From the NCBI GenBank assembly GCA_007126515.1, contig SLBD01000187.1, forward strand, positions 1 through 32,175: a stretch of 32,175 nt of DNA, read 5' to 3'. This DNA is from Kiritimatiellia bacterium. GTDB taxonomy: Bacteria; Verrucomicrobiota; Kiritimatiellia; SLAD01. The position numbers and the translations under genes were made by a program. The notes below the pieces were generated by a model. The model had not been told where the DNA came from. It made no database searches and saw only the letters and a list, made by a program, of their open reading frames with translations. Below, piece by piece: positions 19,452 to 27,087 of this stretch (within the stretch, counting starts at the first letter, position 1; every line of letters begins with the position of its first letter).

Positions 19452-22400
19452 TCAAGGCACACCGTGTTGGCGGGCAGACTCACTTCTTATATGCACAGTA
19501 AAATAGAGGCAGGGAATCACAACGAGAGTCAACAGCATGGATGTGCTGAGACCTCCAATGACAGCGAGGGCCAACGGCCGCATAATATCCGCTCCTTCTC
19601 CTATCCCGATTGCCAGCGGTGACATGCCGAGTATGGTTGTTAATGTAGTCATCAGGATAGGGCGCAGACGCGTTGCTCCGGCCTCGACGATTGCTTTCTG
19701 CAAGGGCATGTTTTGTTCGCGACGGCCGCTTTCGATATATTCGACCAAGAGAATAGCGTTGTTGACGACGATCCCAACGAGAAGCAATAGTCCGATCAGG
19801 GCTGGCGCAGAGAGGGGGGTGGAAGTAATCCAGAGAATTCCAATCACCCCAATCAGCGCGAGGGGCGCTGATAACAGTATGATCAAGGGACTGCTGATGC
19901 GCTCATATTGAACCGCCATCACAGCAAAGACCAGCAATATCGCCAGTCCGATCACTACGGTCAATTCACGATTCGTATCCTGGATGGTTTCCCACTGGCC
20001 GCCCAGGAGTACATTGTAGCCGTCCGGTAAACCGATGTCGCTGAGACGCGCCTGAATTTCAGTGATCACCGTGCTGATGTCGCTCACGGATGGGTTGAGG
20101 TCAGCGGTCACTCGAACAATCCGGGACTGATTTTCGCGCCAGATGGTTGCAGGGCTGTCGACAACATCAAGCCGCGCGACATCACGCAGAAACGTCGTCT
20201 GATCTCCTTGAGTGGCTACAATCAAATCGCCGAGCCGACCTGTATCGTCTATCTCATCCCGCCGGAGTCGGACTCGAACATCGTACTCTTGGCCACGATC
20301 AAGAAAGCGCGTCGCAACTCCTCCATCTAGCGCAGTACGGACGACAGCGCCGATATCCGCGACTCCCAGTCCGGCCCGAGCCGCACGATCCCGGTCTATA
20401 CGGATTTCCAATAATGGCGATCGATCTTCGTCGCCAAACTCCAAATTCTCCAAGCCAGCAATCCCTTGCAAGCGATCATATACATCCCGTCCGATCATTT
20501 CCAATTGATCCAAGTTGGGACCCGTCAGTCCAACCACGATATCATCGCCGGAACTGGTGAACCGCAGTCCTCTGATTTGCGGAGGCCGAACACCTACGCG
20601 TCCGCCCGGAATATCCAATGCCAGCACAGATTGACGTGCTTGCTGAATCCATCGACCTGCAGGCATGTTGGGGCGCTGTGAGGCAGGAACCAACTGTACA
20701 AGGAATTGTGCGAGACCCGAGTTCTCCGTTACTGTTCCCCCCCAAAGGGTGCCTCCGGCTAAAGTATATACTGTTTGGACGTGCGGATCGTCCAACAGGA
20801 GACTTTCGATCTGGCGCGCGGCAGCAAGAGTATCTTCGGGCGGAGTGCCTGAAGGCAGTCGTAGGCTAACCCGTACTTCACCATCATCCAGAGCTGGCAG
20901 AAATTCTCTGCTGAGTCCGCCCACAAGATGTAGCGCTCCGCTCATGAGCACAACCACGCTGATTAAGACCAGCCAGCGCCAACGTAAGACGGCGGGTAGT
21001 GCATAACGATATCGATCCGCAAGCTTCATCATGCCGGTACCGAACTTCTTGATGATAAGCGTTCGGTGTAATCGGCTACTACGCTTCATCTTGCCGAGCA
21101 AAGCCGCCAGCATGGGGACCAATGTCAAAGCCGCTCCTAGAGTGGCAAGAATGGCAAAGGAGATCGTCAGAATCATTTCACGAAAGACCAAGGCGGCGGC
21201 TCCCGTGATCAATAAGAATGGTAGTACTGCAGCCAGATTGGTCAGGGTTCCCGCTGTGACCGCAGATACGACTTCGCTTGCGCCATCTTCTGCCGCTTGA
21301 TCAGGGGACTTTCCAAGTTCTTCTCGATGCCGGTAAATATTCTCCAGCATCACAATGGCATTATCGAGTAAGAGTCCGACGCCGAGGGCAAGGCCTCCGA
21401 GGCTGATGATATTCAGATTCAAGTCATTTCCAGCCATCAACATAAAGGTGACCATGAGGGCGATGGGAATAGAGAGGCTAACGACAAACGCTTTGCGGAG
21501 GCTGCCCAGAAACAAGAGGATTAACCCCATTGCGAGCAATCCGCCAATCACGGCAGCTGATGCAACGCCCGATAATGCTCCGCGGATGAAGAATGTGGGG
21601 TCCATCGTTGTGCTGAATTCAATGTCTTCGGGAATGAAGCCGGACGTCCGCATGTCGGCGAGGGCGGCAGTGACAGCATCGGACACAGCCACCGTGTTTG
21701 CCTCTGGCTGCTTAAAAACATCCACTTGCGCCGCAGGGCGCCCATTGAGGCGCGCAAACACGCGTTGATCTGCCCCCCCGTCGGATACGAGGGCAATATC
21801 GGAGATGCGAATGGTTGTTCCATCACTCGTATCGCGCACAGGCAGAAGAACACGCTCAATATCGAGGAGGGAGGTGAATAGTCCGATGGTGGTCGTCTGC
21901 ACGTCAAATGAAGCGGCCGCCAGACGCCCTCCTGAGATGTCGACGTTTTCTGCGGCCAACGCATGTTCGACATCGCTTAATGTTAAGCCGTATCGTGTCA
22001 AACGTTGTTGATCAACCGCCACTTCGATTTCTCGGATCTGCCCGCCAATGGCTTCTACCGCCGACACGCCCTCGATCATCAGGAGTTGAGGAGCTAGGGA
22101 ATTCTCTACCCAGTCGGTGACGTCAGCCTCACTGCGTAGTGTGGAGCTGAATCCACCTCGCCAAACAGCTTGCATGCCTGGATCAAACTTTCTGACTCGA
22201 GGCTGGTCCGCCGCGTCGGGCAGCCGATTGCGGATTTGCTCGATATTGCGCGCTACATCCTGCAAGGCAAAATCGAGATTTGTGCCAAAGCTGAAGCTCA
22301 GGTCTAGATCCGTTCGGCCTTGCCGCACCCGGCTTTCAATCCGAGTAAGATTGTCTATACCAGAGACCCCTCGTTCGATGACACGAGTGATTTGCTGTTC

Positions 22401-22619
22401 CATCACTTCGGGGGACACCCCCGGGTAATTCACTGATACACGAATCTGAGGGTATTCAATCGTTGGCAGCAGATCCACTGCCAGTTGCTGCAGCGAAAGT
22501 AAGCCACCTATGAAAACAACTAGCGTGATAGCCAGAGTTCCGATGGGGCGGCGTATCGCCAAGCGTGTAATAGTTGCAAGCCCGCCGCGAAGATGGTCTT
22601 TTCGGTTAGACTGCATCAC
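19452..22619 (-). CDS. RND efflux transporter permease subunit (AcrB/MdtB-like)
   Basis: 1055 aa (GTG at 22619 or ATG at 22616); RRPIGTLAITLVVFIGGLLSLQQLAVDLLPTIEYPQIRVSVNYPGVSPEVMEQQITRVIE, GVGLLLDNAIVMLENIYRH, LLLVGIVVNNAILLVEYIE. Confidence 0.97.
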   Translation of the reverse strand: MMQSNRKDHLRGGLATITRLAIRRPIGTLAITLVVFIGGLLSLQQLAVDLLPTIEYPQIRVSVNYPGVSPEVMEQQITRVIERGVSGIDNLTRIESRVRQGRTDLDLSFSFGTNLDFALQDVARNIEQIRNRLPDAADQPRVRKFDPGMQAVWRGGFSSTLRSEADVTDWVENSLAPQLLMIEGVSAVEAIGGQIREIEVAVDQQRLTRYGLTLSDVEHALAAENVDISGGRLAAASFDVQTTTIGLFTSLLDIERVLLPVRDTSDGTTIRISDIALVSDGGADQRVFARLNGRPAAQVDVFKQPEANTVAVSDAVTAALADMRTSGFIPEDIEFSTTMDPTFFIRGALSGVASAAVIGGLLAMGLILLFLGSLRKAFVVSLSIPIALMVTFMLMAGNDLNLNIISLGGLALGVGLLLDNAIVMLENIYRHREELGKSPDQAAEDGASEVVSAVTAGTLTNLAAVLPFLLITGAAALVFREMILTISFAILATLGAALTLVPMLAALLGKMKRSSRLHRTLIIKKFGTGMMKLADRYRYALPAVLRWRWLVLISVVVLMSGALHLVGGLSREFLPALDDGEVRVSLRLPSGTPPEDTLAAARQIESLLLDDPHVQTVYTLAGGTLWGGTVTENSGLAQFLVQLVPASQRPNMPAGRWIQQARQSVLALDIPGGRVGVRPPQIRGLRFTSSGDDIVVGLTGPNLDQLEMIGRDVYDRLQGIAGLENLEFGDEDRSPLLEIRIDRDRAARAGLGVADIGAVVRTALDGGVATRFLDRGQEYDVRVRLRRDEIDDTGRLGDLIVATQGDQTTFLRDVARLDVVDSPATIWRENQSRIVRVTADLNPSVSDISTVITEIQARLSDIGLPDGYNVLLGGQWETIQDTNRELTVVIGLAILLVFAVMAVQYERISSPLIILLSAPLALIGVIGILWITSTPLSAPALIGLLLLVGIVVNNAILLVEYIESGRREQNMPLQKAIVEAGATRLRPILMTTLTTILGMSPLAIGIGEGADIMRPLALAVIGGLSTSMLLTLVVIPCLYFTVHIRSESARQHGVP

Positions 22620-23737
22620 GTCTTCCCGCGAGACGTCGGAGAGTTCTCGTCGACAGTAGCTTCAGAGTCGCTATCCCAACGGACGATCCGAACGCTTTGC
22701 TCCTCACGTAATTCCCGAGGGTTTGATGCAACGACAACATCATTGGCTGACAGACCCGCTTGCACTTCAATATAGCCCCCGCGCTCTACCCCAAGTTGAA
22801 CCTCCTTGCGGTAAAGCTGGTCGTCGGCAATGACAAATACATACGGCTCTGCCCTGTCACGGGCCACAGCCGCTACGGGAACGGCCAGCACGTCGGCTCG
22901 GCGGTCAATTCTGGCTTCCGCCCGCACCATGAACCCAACTCTCACTCCATCCTGTATCGCGCGTTCTGGTATTCGAGTGTCTACCCGTAAGAGCCGGTCC
23001 CCTTGTCGCATTGCCGGAGCAATGCGCACAATCGTCAGGTCGAAACAGCAATCTGGCATGGCATCAAACGTTGCTGTGAGAGTCTCTCCCTCGCGAATAT
23101 GGACCGCATCGATTTCCGAAACACGGAATCGCGCCCGGATATCGTCATCGGCGATCAACTCGAACACGGGGGCCCGCGTTTGCACAGCTTCGCCTGGTTC
23201 AACATACCGGGCGGTGATCAAGCCGGCACGCGGGGCGGCAATCACGGAGTTCTCCAAACGGACCTTCCACACCTGTTCGGTGCTGGATGCTACGTGCCAC
23301 GCAGCGCGGGCAGCAAAGTATTCGGCTTCGGCGACAATGTCGCGTGCCCTCAGATCTCTAAGTCGTTCATAATCTAACTTGGCGAGTTCGAGCTGTGCCC
23401 GGGCTCGTTCCAGCTCCGCCTCGGTTTCTGCTTTGTCGAGTCGAGCCAATACATCGCCCGGCTCAACACGATCGCCTTCATCCACATATACACTGTCTAC
23501 AGCCCCACCAGTACGGGCCGCGATTTGAACGCGGGCGCGCGGTTCAACCTCACCCGATAATCGCAATGTCCGGTACAGCTCTCGCGGAGTGACACGATAG
23601 GCCGCAACAGCGATCGATTGGCTAGGGCGGGAATCGGCCAGCGAGTCGCTGCGACAGCTGGCTCCAAATCCAATGATGAGGATGCCGAAGACAACCATGC
23701 AGAGCCTAATCCAAAATCTATCATGCTCATATTTCAT
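22616..23737 (-). CDS. RND efflux periplasmic adaptor (membrane fusion) lipoprotein
   Basis: Start at 23737 (MKYEHDRFWIRLCMVVFGILIIGFGASCRSD, lipobox GASC); RVQIAARTGGAVDSVYVDEGDRVEPGDVLARLDKAETEAELERARAQLELAKLDYERL; overlaps the permease start. Confidence 0.95.
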   Translation of the reverse strand: MKYEHDRFWIRLCMVVFGILIIGFGASCRSDSLADSRPSQSIAVAAYRVTPRELYRTLRLSGEVEPRARVQIAARTGGAVDSVYVDEGDRVEPGDVLARLDKAETEAELERARAQLELAKLDYERLRDLRARDIVAEAEYFAARAAWHVASSTEQVWKVRLENSVIAAPRAGLITARYVEPGEAVQTRAPVFELIADDDIRARFRVSEIDAVHIREGETLTATFDAMPDCCFDLTIVRIAPAMRQGDRLLRVDTRIPERAIQDGVRVGFMVRAEARIDRRADVLAVPVAAVARDRAEPYVFVIADDQLYRKEVQLGVERGGYIEVQAGLSANDVVVASNPRELREEQSVRIVRWDSDSEATVDENSPTSRGKT

Positions 23738-23832
23738 ACAAATGTGTCGCAGGTTCCTGTGGTAGTTAACAGCCATAATGTTCTTTTGGGAGGCTGTTCA
23801 TCGAGATTGAAGTTCTGCCTGCAGGCTGCAGG

Positions 23833-23859
23833 CTTCCGGCTGAAGCCTGTACTACCAAC
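23833..23859 (+). repeat. Family-1 REP-like unit, forward
   Basis: CTTCCGGCTGAAGCCTGTACTACCAAC; adjoins the near-palindrome GCCTGCAGGCTGCAGGC (23817-23833). Confidence 0.85.
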
Positions 23860-23880
23860 AGTTTCTCGCACCAAAGAGTG

Positions 23881-23903
23881 TTCGTAGTCCCGCCTTCAGG
23901 CGG
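23881..23903 (-). repeat. Family-1 REP-like unit, reverse
   Basis: TTCGTAGTCCCGCCTTCAGGCGG. Confidence 0.85.
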
Positions 23904-23915
23904 TTTCCTTCCTCT

Positions 23916-23942
23916 CTTCCGGCTGAAGCCGATACTACAAAC
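23916..23942 (+). repeat. Family-1 REP-like unit, forward
   Basis: CTTCCGGCTGAAGCCGATACTACAAAC. Confidence 0.88.
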
Positions 23943-23976
23943 GGGCTCTCATACCCGCGAGATTCCCTCACTCGAG

Positions 23977-24000
23977 GTTTGTAGTCCCGGCTTTAGCCGA
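23977..24000 (-). repeat. Family-1 REP-like unit, reverse
   Basis: GTTTGTAGTCCCGGCTTTAGCCGA; ends 16 nt before the transposase ATG. Confidence 0.88.
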
Positions 24001-24016
24001 CTACACTATCTTCATT

Positions 24017-24652
24017 ATGTATAACTGGCGCAATATGACCGAGCCGCAACGCGCCGAAGCTATCGAGCATCGCCGCCTGCTCCATCGTCCGTTGCACGGT
24101 CCGCCTCACTTCAACGAACGCGGTCGCCACCGCTACCATCTCATCGCCGCCAACTACCAGCATCAGACCATCATCGGCCAAAGCCTGGACCGCATGACTG
24201 GCTTCAGTCAGATACTCTTCTCCGTGTTGGATAAGGGCGAAAACGAGCTTCATGCGTGGTGCGTTTTGCCCAACCATTGGCATGCCTTGATCGGCACAGA
24301 TGATCTAAAGAAACTGCTTAGTGCAATCGGCAAACTCCATGGACGGACCTCTTTTGAATGGAACGGTGAGGAGGAAGCGCGAGGCCGCCAGTGCTGGCAT
24401 CGTTGCGCTGACCGACGCATTCGCTCCGAGGCCCATTTACATGCTGTGCGGAACTATATCCATCATAATCCGGTAAAGCATGGGTACGTAACAAATTGGG
24501 AAGATTGGCCTTGGTCCAGCGCCAGTGATTACCTTCAAGAAGTTGGACTGAAAACCGCCCGTATAATGTGGGAGCAATATCCCATCCTCGATATGGGGAA
24601 GGGGTGGGATGAAAATATAGAATCGCCCTGTGGAGGAAGAATCACCGGCTAA
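24017..24652 (+). mobile_element. REP-associated tyrosine transposase (RAYT; IS200/IS605-like Y1 superfamily)
   Basis: 211 aa; HUH motif VLPNHWHALIG; IRSEAHLHAVRNYIHHNPVKHGYVTNWEDWPWSSASDY is the typical RAYT C-terminal signature with catalytic Tyr region. Flanked by REP-like palindromes. Confidence 0.93.
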
Positions 24653-24668
24653 AGCCGGTACTACAAAC
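24645..24668 (+). repeat. Family-1 REP-like unit, forward
   Basis: CCGGCTAAAGCCGGTACTACAAAC; overlaps the RAYT stop codon (TAA within GGCTAA). Confidence 0.88.
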
Positions 24669-24689
24669 AGGTTTGTCTATTCCAAGGCC

Positions 24690-24710
24690 GTTCGTAGTCC
24701 CGCCTTCAGG
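24690..24710 (-). repeat. Family-1 REP-like unit, reverse
   Basis: GTTCGTAGTCCCGCCTTCAGG. Confidence 0.85.
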
Positions 24711-24740
24711 AGGCGCTTTTCCCGCGCGTTCATTTACTCC

Positions 24741-24770
24741 CTTCCGGCTAAAGCCGATACTGCAAGCAGG
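24741..24770 (+). repeat. Family-1 REP-like unit, forward
   Basis: CTTCCGGCTAAAGCCGATACTGCAAGCAGG. Confidence 0.83.
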
Positions 24771-24788
24771 TTCTCGCTTCCAATGGTC

Positions 24789-24806
24789 GTTTGTACTCCC
24801 AACTCC
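24789..24806 (-). repeat. Degenerate family-1 REP-like unit, reverse
   Basis: GTTTGTACTCCCAACTCC, compared with GTTTGTAGTCCCGGCTTT; hairpin lost. Confidence 0.45.
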
Positions 24807-24894
24807 CCAAAAACTCGTGATTGCGGATTGTTGATGAATTGATAGAGTACCGCAGGTTCAATTCAGTAAACCTAATACTGCAAGGAGCTAGTTC

Positions 24895-27087
24895 ATGCCA
24901 AAACAGAAAACACCGGTTGTCTTGGGAAATGCGCGGTTCACGGTCTATTCTCCGGGCTGCGTACGAATGGAGTATGCCAAGGAAGGTCAATTTTCTCCGA
25001 ACCCTTCGGTGCTGACCGGTGGAACTGCGGCCTCGTCTATATCGGCGGATGTGGTCGTGAAAGGAAAATCTTTGACGCTCCGGACGGATCAATTGTCTTT
25101 GTACTATACCGACAATGGCGAGAACTTCTCGCCCGCAAACTTGCGCATCGAACATAAGAATATTGCCGGCAACAAGGAGTATTGGGTTCCAGGCAAACGG
25201 GATGACGGGAATCTGGGCACCGTGAAGCGCTCGTTGGATTCGTGGACGTGGTGCGGCGGTCCCGGAGCGTACCCAGTAGAAGGAATCCTGAGTCGGCAAG
25301 GTGGACATTTTCTGCCGGACGAGCCTCGCGTCTATTGGAATCCAGCATCGAAATGGATTGAGAATCGTTCCCGATCCGTGTGGTTTGATGGATACTTCTT
25401 TGCCTACGGCAGTGATTTCAAGGGCGCTCTAAAAGACTTCATTAAGGTGTTCGGCCCCATTCCCATGGTACCTCGCTGGACCTTTGGCTTCTGGTACTCG
25501 CGCTGGTATCCATACAAGGCTCAAGAATTTGTGGATCTTGCCAAACGCTATCGCAAGGCCGGTATTCCGATTGATGTGATGATTATTGATACCGATTGGC
25601 GGGATGGCTGGGGTGGTTACGACTGGAGTAAAAAGTATTTCCCAAATCCTGAAAAGGCGCTCAAGAAACTCCATGATCTTGGACTCATCACTTCATTGAA
25701 TGATCATCCGGGTTACGATGGCTATGAAGCCTTGCCAGAAAACGACAGTCATATTCCAGGCGTCGAAAAAGCGTTGGGACCCCGCCCGCACAATGGCGAC
25801 TGGGCCTGCGATTGGTCGAATCAGAAGGCGCTGACGCATTGGCGAAAGCATGTGTTAGGACCCTTCTTCGATCAAGGGATGGATTTCTGGTGGGTGGATG
25901 GATGGATCAAATCGCCGTCGAATTCTTTAGATAGCCAGTTATGGGCGAATCAGCACTATTATGAGCTAGCCGAAGAAAAGACAGGTAAGCGAGGCATGAT
26001 CCTTTCTCGCTGGGGCGGGATTGGCTCGCATCGCTATCCGGTGCAGTTCTCTGGCGACACCCATTCCAACTGGCACACGCTCAAACATCAAATTGAGTTC
26101 ACGGCTCGATCGGGCAATTTAGGAGCGGCCTATTGGTCTCACGATATTGGTGGTTTCCATGAGAAGGAAATTGATGAAGAGATTTTTATTCGCTGGTTTC
26201 AGTTTGGCTCGTTGAGCCCTGTATTTCGGACGCATAGTGCATTCGGAATTCGTGAGCCGTGGAAGTTCAGTTCGCGCTGTCAGCGGTTGTTCCGTAAGCA
26301 AACTCATATGCGCTATGCCCTAGCGCCGCTGTTTTATGGGTTGGCACGCGAAGCGCATCTGGAGGGTCTGCCTATTTGTCGGCCGATGTATTTGGACAAC
26401 AATGAGAACGATGGCGGAGCCTTGGATCGTAAACACCAATATATGTTGGGATCCGATTTGCTGGTAATTCCTGCCGATGGTGGGATTGACAAGAATACTC
26501 GTGTGCAACGAAAGCGGGCGTATTTTCCCAAAGGCACTTGGCGTTCGCTGGAAACCAACGATGTGCGGATGGGTTTGCATGATGCAATCATCGATATCCC
26601 TTTGGATCTGATTCCTGTCTATGTGCGGGAAGGAGCCATCCTGCCCAGCCAAGCCGTTGGAGAGCGTCTGGGAACGCAAACACCTGAAGAGATCCAATTT
26701 GACTTTTTCCCAGCCGAAGGCATCGATTCCACGTACCAGCTCTACGAGGATGATGGTGAGTCGCTGGCACATCAAAGTGGCCAATTTGCGATCACGAATC
26801 TGCGCGGAAAGGCGGAGTTGGACCAAGTCACGCTGGACATTGACGCACCGCAGGGTACGTATAAAGGGATGCCGAAACAGCGCACGTATGTGGTACGGTG
26901 TGCGTTGAACGAAGGCGAGAAGGTTGTAAAGGCGCACGTGAAAGTGGGGAAACAGGCCCCGGTTGAGGTGAAGACTCGTGTGACAAAGTCTTGCTTGGCG
27001 GGTACAGTTAAGACACCGTATCGATTTGCTGAGGTGCAAATCGTCAGTCGCAACAAACCAGTGAAGGTTGTGTGGACGCTTAAATGA
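24895..27087 (+). CDS. GH31 glycosidase (alpha-glucosidase-type), no evident signal peptide
   Basis: 730 aa; WTFGFWYSRWYPYKAQEFVDLAKRYRKAGIPIDVMIIDTDW, MDFWWVDGWI nucleophile region, SRWGGIGSHRYPVQFSGDTHSNW acid/base region, AAYWSHDIGGF, FFPAEGIDSTYQLYEDDGES C-terminal (DUF5110-type). Confidence 0.95.
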   Translation: MPKQKTPVVLGNARFTVYSPGCVRMEYAKEGQFSPNPSVLTGGTAASSISADVVVKGKSLTLRTDQLSLYYTDNGENFSPANLRIEHKNIAGNKEYWVPGKRDDGNLGTVKRSLDSWTWCGGPGAYPVEGILSRQGGHFLPDEPRVYWNPASKWIENRSRSVWFDGYFFAYGSDFKGALKDFIKVFGPIPMVPRWTFGFWYSRWYPYKAQEFVDLAKRYRKAGIPIDVMIIDTDWRDGWGGYDWSKKYFPNPEKALKKLHDLGLITSLNDHPGYDGYEALPENDSHIPGVEKALGPRPHNGDWACDWSNQKALTHWRKHVLGPFFDQGMDFWWVDGWIKSPSNSLDSQLWANQHYYELAEEKTGKRGMILSRWGGIGSHRYPVQFSGDTHSNWHTLKHQIEFTARSGNLGAAYWSHDIGGFHEKEIDEEIFIRWFQFGSLSPVFRTHSAFGIREPWKFSSRCQRLFRKQTHMRYALAPLFYGLAREAHLEGLPICRPMYLDNNENDGGALDRKHQYMLGSDLLVIPADGGIDKNTRVQRKRAYFPKGTWRSLETNDVRMGLHDAIIDIPLDLIPVYVREGAILPSQAVGERLGTQTPEEIQFDFFPAEGIDSTYQLYEDDGESLAHQSGQFAITNLRGKAELDQVTLDIDAPQGTYKGMPKQRTYVVRCALNEGEKVVKAHVKVGKQAPVEVKTRVTKSCLAGTVKTPYRFAEVQIVSRNKPVKVVWTLK

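Follow-up and report, generated by a model that had tools for sequence, protein, structure and literature searches.

A RAYT gene with its own REP family in a BIME-type array of a Kiritimatiellia bacterium, and REP pairs carried by MITEs

Genomic context of the locus

The window, i.e. the whole stretch of DNA analysed here, is a contig (C84) of 32,175 nucleotides from a Kiritimatiellia draft genome (G000; 2.47 Mb in 244 contigs, 92% complete). It contains a RAYT (TnpAREP) gene surrounded by an array of short palindromic repeats. The gene and its array are localized between a divergent operon encoding an RND efflux system and a gene of the glycoside hydrolase family 31 (GH31; Table 1). The GH31 gene is 72-74% like the GH31 genes of the same genus, which argues against a mis-binned contig. 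Synteny with sister species is interrupted in the region 22616-24894. At this junction, GH31 is preceded in the sister species by a superoxide dismutase gene instead of the efflux operon and RAYT found in G000. Since the array lies at this junction, the comparison with sister species provides no clean empty site.

Table 1. Features of the RAYT locus and of its surroundings in the window.
Feature	Position	Strand	Sequence	Remarks
AcrB-type pump, RND efflux operon	19452-22619	-		
Membrane-fusion protein, RND efflux operon	22616-23776	-		
REP on the minus strand (iREP on +)	23836-23855	-	GTAGTACAGGCTTCAGCCGG	Mismatched stem
REP	23884-23903	+	GTAGTCCCGCCTTCAGGCGG	Perfect stem
REP on the minus strand (iREP on +)	23919-23938	-	GTAGTATCGGCTTCAGCCGG	
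Unit common with G300	23966-24713	+		79% DNA identity; nearest upstream REP, RAYT and first downstream REP pair
REP adjoining the RAYT start	23981-24000	+	GTAGTCCCGGCTTTAGCCGA	
RAYT (TnpAREP) gene	24017-24652	+		211 codons; PF01797; NF047646; 4er8 best by sequence and fold; dN/dS 0.12
REP on the minus strand (iREP on +)	24645-24664	-	GTAGTACCGGCTTTAGCCGG	Perfect stem; loop gives the RAYT stop TAA
REP	24694-24713	+	GTAGTCCCGCCTTCAGGAGG	Single mismatch in the stem; end of the DNA similarity to G300
REP on the minus strand (iREP on +)	24744-24763	-	GCAGTATCGGCTTTAGCCGG	Tag mutated, GCAG for GTAG
Decayed REP	about 24789-24812	+		GTAC for GTAG, no hairpin
Glycoside hydrolase 31 (GH31) gene	24895-27087	+		

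The REP array

The REP pattern, with up to 3 mismatches allowed, gave 7 matches in the window, all comprised between 23836 and 24763, and none in 100 dinucleotide shuffles. These seven units and one decayed remnant alternate strictly, four on each side of the RAYT, as a sequence-only reading of this DNA had described with coordinates that are right to within 3-4 bases. That reading distinguished forward and reverse units; both exist, but their sense has to be corrected, the reverse units (GTAG at the 5' side) being the REPs and the forward units the iREPs. The regular alternation of orientation is that of a BIME/REP array. No TIR ends were detected around the array, either by eye or as matches to CAGCAATT, and Rfam recovered no family at cut-off, its sole match being a sub-threshold, chance miRNA.

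Read on the GTAG strand, each unit has the organization GTAG-TN-5-bp stem-TTYA-stem, with a 2-nt spacer and a 4-nt loop. The same hairpin geometry is known for REPMb, from Marinomonas sp. MWYL1 (GTAG, 2-nt spacer, perfect 5-bp stem and 4-nt loop TTNA). SELEX and mutants have shown that the REPMb loop must have T, T and A as its bases 1, 2 and 4, base 3 being free (PMC8266576). The TGAA and TAAA loops had been taken as signs of diversification. On the REP strand they are TTCA and TTTA, which differ solely at the loop base ignored by TnpA_Mb, and they therefore represent no diversification of specificity. Among the units picked by tag and loop alone from all loci fetched, many of these loci coming from a pattern that partly constrains the stem, the stem is perfect in 229 of 249, with compensatory variation at three of the five stem pairs. 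A pyrimidine (T or C) occupies the free loop position in 248 of these 249 units.

The window array is partly decayed. A perfect 5-bp stem is conserved in only two of the eight units (23884 and 24645), most of the others having one mismatch, and the worst decay concerns the outermost units (23836, 24744 and 24789). As most units are imperfect and copies are few in G000, the current activity of the system is uncertain. The downstream iREP contains in its loop the RAYT stop codon TAA (24650-24652), and the gene therefore overlaps the first downstream unit. REPs also supply stop codons at L063:2134-2136 and L054:3604-3606. The loop TRA of the iREP reads TAA in the window and TGA in G300, a close relative, while in G307 the RAYT stop TAG derives from an ATAG tag.

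The RAYT gene and its product

The reading frame is intact (211 amino acids, 24017-24652), in agreement with the complete RAYT announced before, and the ATG at 24017 is supported as the start by an N-terminus common to 30 relatives. The protein contains a Y1 transposase domain (PF01797, 34 bits). It passes the NCBI equivalog model REP_Tyr_transpos (NF047646) with 81.4 bits for a cut-off of 80, and fails the IS200 model (19 bits versus 55). The HUH motif is H87-W88-H89 and the catalytic Tyr147 is included in the sequence YIHHNP; the residues H87, H89, Y147 and N151 are unchanged in all 30 relatives compared. YIHHNP displays the signature Y---NP instead of the IS200-type Y---Q, a replacement that defines the RAYTs, or class 2 TnpAY1 (PMC6006769). 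Inverted REPs, which are found again elsewhere in the genome, moreover lie on both sides of the gene, as is characteristic of RAYT/TnpAREP. The solved structure nearest by sequence is that of the E. coli TnpAREP (4er8). This structure, bound to a REP hairpin, is also the top fold match (E 6.5e-8) of the AlphaFold model, whose mean pLDDT is 83. The dN/dS ratio against the closest homologue, the RAYT of G300, is 0.12; by this measure the gene is under purifying selection. RAYTs of the window type are present as a single copy in G000.

Different RAYTs were observed inside restriction loci. In G000, a RAYT lies in frame inside a type I restriction HsdR gene (L105:1915-6003, contig C46), between the HSDR_N and SWI2/SNF2 ATPase domains, with the in-frame repeats GGQECPPS and ESGLSSPLS, REP-derived in look. 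A third RAYT (L106:2212-3009, C147), containing repeated REP-like peptides, is found at an apparent type I restriction locus with a RhuM-like gene and an HsdS-like frame, recognized from translations only. In G008, of the same family, a RAYT domain is in frame within an Eco57I-type restriction-modification protein (L107:2019-6524, C208).

Distribution of the RAYT clade and of its REPs in Kiritimatiellia

The named matches of the window RAYT come from Kiritimatiellota/Verrucomicrobia genomes, and a plasmid collection searched for this RAYT gave distant RAYTs only. A profile search of 346 Kiritimatiellia genomes recovered 41 matches to the RAYT clade, patchily distributed in 35 genomes. The possibility that the repeat occurs nowhere else, which would have spoken against the association, is refuted by pattern searches, which located seven loci in G000 beyond the window. 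A second possible objection concerned genomes that bear the repeats and no RAYT of this clade. The association itself holds, at least three REPs being present in 25 of the 35 genomes with the RAYT clade versus 38 of the 311 genomes without it (p=1.7e-13, relatedness uncorrected), but 38 genomes do have the repeats alone. In 22 of these, only more distant RAYTs are present, and in 16 no RAYT was detected at the threshold used. Genome drafts break in arrays of such REPs. In the close relative G300, about 120 REPs were counted.

Cognate pairing is observed across the relatives. TTYA hairpins lie beside 29 of the 39 usable RAYTs (one of the 29 with an inserted base), and the remaining ten are flanked either by GTAG hairpins whose loops are different (GTRA, GCAA) or by long hairpins. 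A RAYT tree, one of the checks proposed beforehand, places the TTYA-flanked set in one branch (support 100/99), and hairpin type changes twice along this tree, which is the minimum. The characteristic motifs of the clade are NH[WY]H, mostly WH, and YIHHNP, for a length of ~200 amino acids. The array anatomy, the profile and fold matches and this comparison of relatives together support the BIME-like alternation, the RAYT identity and the cognate nature of the repeats.

Tags within the clade are lineage-specific. GTAG is found in the window and in other members, GGAG in G010, G116, G166, G310 and G312, GGTG in G026, G344, G168 and G172, and GTTG in G085 and G180, with a few CCAG, AGAG and CGAG forms. 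All 29 REPs listed in G026 have GGTG, and all 22 in G166 have GGAG. GGAG, GGTG and GTTG are outside the published degenerate tags (GYAG, GYRG, GTRG, GTMG and GTGG; PMC3733652). In G085 (8.7 Mb), 9 of the 11 GTTG REPs are grouped within 135 kb (contig C1, 2977320-3112366) around a GTTG-flanked RAYT that carries an in-frame stop; this cluster fits a local spread by a tag-matched enzyme. In G004, from the same genus and without this RAYT, dispersed AGAG-tagged REPs were observed (L193, L198, L203, L208 and L213), with a second hairpin and a resemblance to the REPs beside the G010 RAYT.

Among the enzyme positions varying with the tag are W88/Y88, located between the two histidines of the HUH motif, and D132; the latter is aligned with E. 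coli E100, a residue implicated in GTAG recognition. W88 versus Y88 separates T2 from the other tags inside the TTYA clade. This covariation is only a lead, since it amounts essentially to one switch on the tree and NHYH also occurs with GTAG in the sister group. A T at tag position 3 (GGTG, GTTG) has been suggested to favour CA over CT as the cleavage site (PMC8266576). Such a shift was not seen in the region comprising the last stem base and the six 3' flanking bases, where CT is present in 23 of 33 GTTG and 14 of 27 GGTG REPs versus 86 of 155 GTAG REPs.

Comparison with known REP/RAYT systems

REPtron Mb (TnpA_Mb/REPMb; RAYT group 3, subclass 2.5), whose hairpins have the geometry of the window REPs, also has its REPs near the gene, as here (PMC8266576). 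The enzymes differ, with NHWH, WH and YIHHNP in the window versus DH[LF]H, WQ and YI[VI]ANP in subclass 2.5 (TnpA_Mb, TnpA_Sm), and unlike REPtron Mb the relatives in the window clade also bear tags other than GTAG. The window system thus displays the short REP of subclass 2.5, with its tag 1-2 nt from the stem, without the enzyme motifs. The nearest motif set is that of subclass 2.8, from Cyanobacteria (NHYH, W[YH], YIHYNP, median length 199, proline-rich N-terminus; PMC6006769), a set similar but not identical to that of the window clade and likened to it by its published description. Subclass 2.8 is reported to have long canonical REPs, whereas those of the window clade are short, with 5-bp stems. 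In E. coli (TnpAREP/BIME, subclass 2.2, 4er8), the gene is flanked, as in the window, by BIMEs with alternating REPs; the E. coli REPs, however, are long and bulged, in contrast with the short hairpins of the window, and the enzyme has the motifs DHLH, WE and YIHYNP. The window RAYT matches no published subclass on all points: its enzyme motifs are nearest to those of subclass 2.8, and its REPs resemble the REPs of subclass 2.5. Gene and array together represent a new RAYT/REP family, of a kind already well known.

Probable horizontal transfer of the RAYT and its nearest REPs

The window RAYT displays 81% identity with that of G300, which belongs to another family, and 49% with that of G010, from its own family. 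The same comparisons for rpoB give 78% and 85%, respectively. Synonymous differences with G300 are of 0.51 for the RAYT and of 0.74, near saturation, for rpoB. The similarity to G300 extends from 23966, just before the nearest upstream REP, to 24713, the end of the first downstream pair, and in both genomes the stop comes from the downstream iREP loop at the identical codon position. From this span and the matching REP-supplied stop, the RAYT and its nearest REPs were probably transferred together, the segment 23966-24713 having moved horizontally as one unit.

REP pairs carried by MITEs

Of the seven loci of G000 beyond the window, one is an array interrupted by the end of its contig (C159), another is a degraded pair (C161), and the other five are REP pairs nearly identical to one another (C46, C53, C83, C183 and C185). 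The array on C159, the second one of G000, repeats every ~82 bp (L099:7000-7200). Once aligned, the five pairs appear as copies of one element of 132-133 bp with 20-bp inverted ends CAGCAATTCTAATTATGGCC, each 133-bp MITE containing an iREP/REP pair (L138, L144, L147, L150 and L151, respectively). Target duplications of 9 bp were detected at C53 (CATCCATTC), C83 (GTGTTCAGT) and C46 (CTGCGTGAT/C), and are less clear for the C185 and C183 copies. The degraded pair of C161 finishes in the same terminus as the MITE. Judged by open reading frames, the dispersed copies are placed between genes or at a gene edge. Inverted ends, target duplications and the absence of coding capacity, which define DDE-type MITEs, characterize these copies and not the window array. 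No pair of MITE ends at insertion-sequence distance, as expected of an autonomous element, was found in the G000 draft.

The target duplications at the outer repeats lead us to attribute the spread of the element to a DDE-type transposase acting on its ends; the dispersed copies of G000 would thus owe their spread to that enzyme and not to the RAYT. Most G000 copies outside the window being MITE cargo, they are no evidence of RAYT-driven spread and say little on RAYT activity.

REP pairs of other stems are included between the same ends, with 9-bp duplications, in G181 (L220-L231) and G300 (L194, L209). REP pairs were also found within elements of three other end families: GTAATGGGTCAGT in G026 (L170-L182) and GTAACTTCTCAATAAC in G180, both with 8-bp duplications, and GGGCGCATCTG..GTGCA in G052 (L254-L255), with 9-bp duplications and a variant in G180. 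The G180 loci with REP pairs in inverted-end elements are L236, L237 and L191. In total, four unrelated end sequences were found in six genomes (G000 and five others). The test for inverted ends and duplication gave 0 in 1000 on shuffled flanks. Around the REP pairs of G111, G059, G068, G056, G166, G085 and G004 it detected no MITE ends, and MITE carriage is therefore not universal. The first end family was also observed with other internal palindromes, at L146, L153 and L155 (G000, contigs C59, C178 and C187) and at L143 (G008, C135). The association of shared ends with different REP stems may reflect independent capture, or an old composite whose REPs changed along with the local RAYT.

Comparable arrangements have been published. 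In Anabaena variabilis and Halothiobacillus neapolitanus, REP dimers lie inside multicopy palindromes, like the MITE-borne pairs; the palindromes were interpreted there as insertion targets, the passages found making no mention of target duplications, in contrast with the 8-9 bp duplications detected here (PMC3733652). The Coxiella MITE QMITE2 contains a GTAG REP at a fixed place in a multicopy inverted repeat (PMC10969869). A literature search largely excluding subscription journals recovered no description of target duplications around REP pairs or of their repeated capture.

Interpretation of the locus

We interpret the locus as a REPtron, i.e. a TnpAREP/RAYT gene accompanied by a REP family of its own in a BIME-type array, with a RAYT-driven mechanism, a horizontal arrival and a dispersal by MITEs elsewhere in the genome (probability of about 0.85). 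By analogy with the characterized relatives TnpA_Ec and TnpA_Mb, the window RAYT would bind, cleave and transfer strands as follows. It would recognize the folded single-stranded hairpin GTAG-NN-5 bp with its TTYA loop when presented as a REP but not as an iREP, and would cleave beside it by means of the HUH motif and Tyr147. Strand transfer would follow, and iREP/REP pairs would multiply over time near the gene. The RAYT and its nearest REPs would have entered the lineage by horizontal transfer, the outer units then decaying. Elsewhere in G000, a REP pair included in a TIR element (MITE) would owe its dispersal to a DDE-type transposase that recognizes the element ends.

It is conceivable, if rather unlikely, that the locus is a relic, whose RAYT, recruited to a different function by domestication, has stopped moving REPs, the array decaying and the other copies coming from the MITE. 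RAYTs have indeed been proposed to be domesticated transposases (PMC8266576), six of the eight window units are imperfect, and the few G000 copies outside arrays are MITE-borne; the intact reading frame and its low dN/dS, the two perfect units and the abundance of REPs in G300 speak against such a relic. We consider it very improbable that the gene and the repeats form a classical insertion sequence of the IS200/IS605 type, which would move autonomously with the repeats as its hairpin ends. The enzyme superfamily is shared, and the probable transfer of the RAYT with its nearest REPs as one unit would suit such an element, but the profile scores and the Y---NP motif (PMC6006769) are those of a RAYT, G000 has one copy of the window-type gene, and many loci contain REPs without the gene. 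Finally, we give hardly any credence to an array retained for regulation or termination (mRNA ends, supercoiling) with an incidental transposase: although such roles have been assigned to REPs in general (PMC3733652) and one half of the array lies between two same-strand genes, the upstream half separates genes that diverge, a position in which a terminator is unexpected, Rfam gave no family at cut-off, and the flanking by TTYA hairpins tracks the RAYT clade and not the neighbour genes.

Beyond the REPtron itself, the newer parts concern the relatives, namely the re-coding of tags inside one clade and the repeated carriage of REP pairs by MITEs. We put at about even odds the broader proposal that one Kiritimatiellia RAYT clade has re-coded its guide tetranucleotide while keeping the TTYA hairpin, with matching changes in the enzyme, and that unrelated TIR MITEs repeatedly took up REP pairs and did much of their genome-wide dispersal. 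How REPs spread is still unsettled. If the proposal is true, neither the number of REP copies nor the conserved REP pairs would record RAYT activity; MITE carriage warns that both can stem from another transposase. The clade offers a natural series of RAYT/REP pairs that differ in their tag on a constant hairpin, and exchanging residues from one relative to another (W88/Y88 and D132) would make tag recognition open to test.
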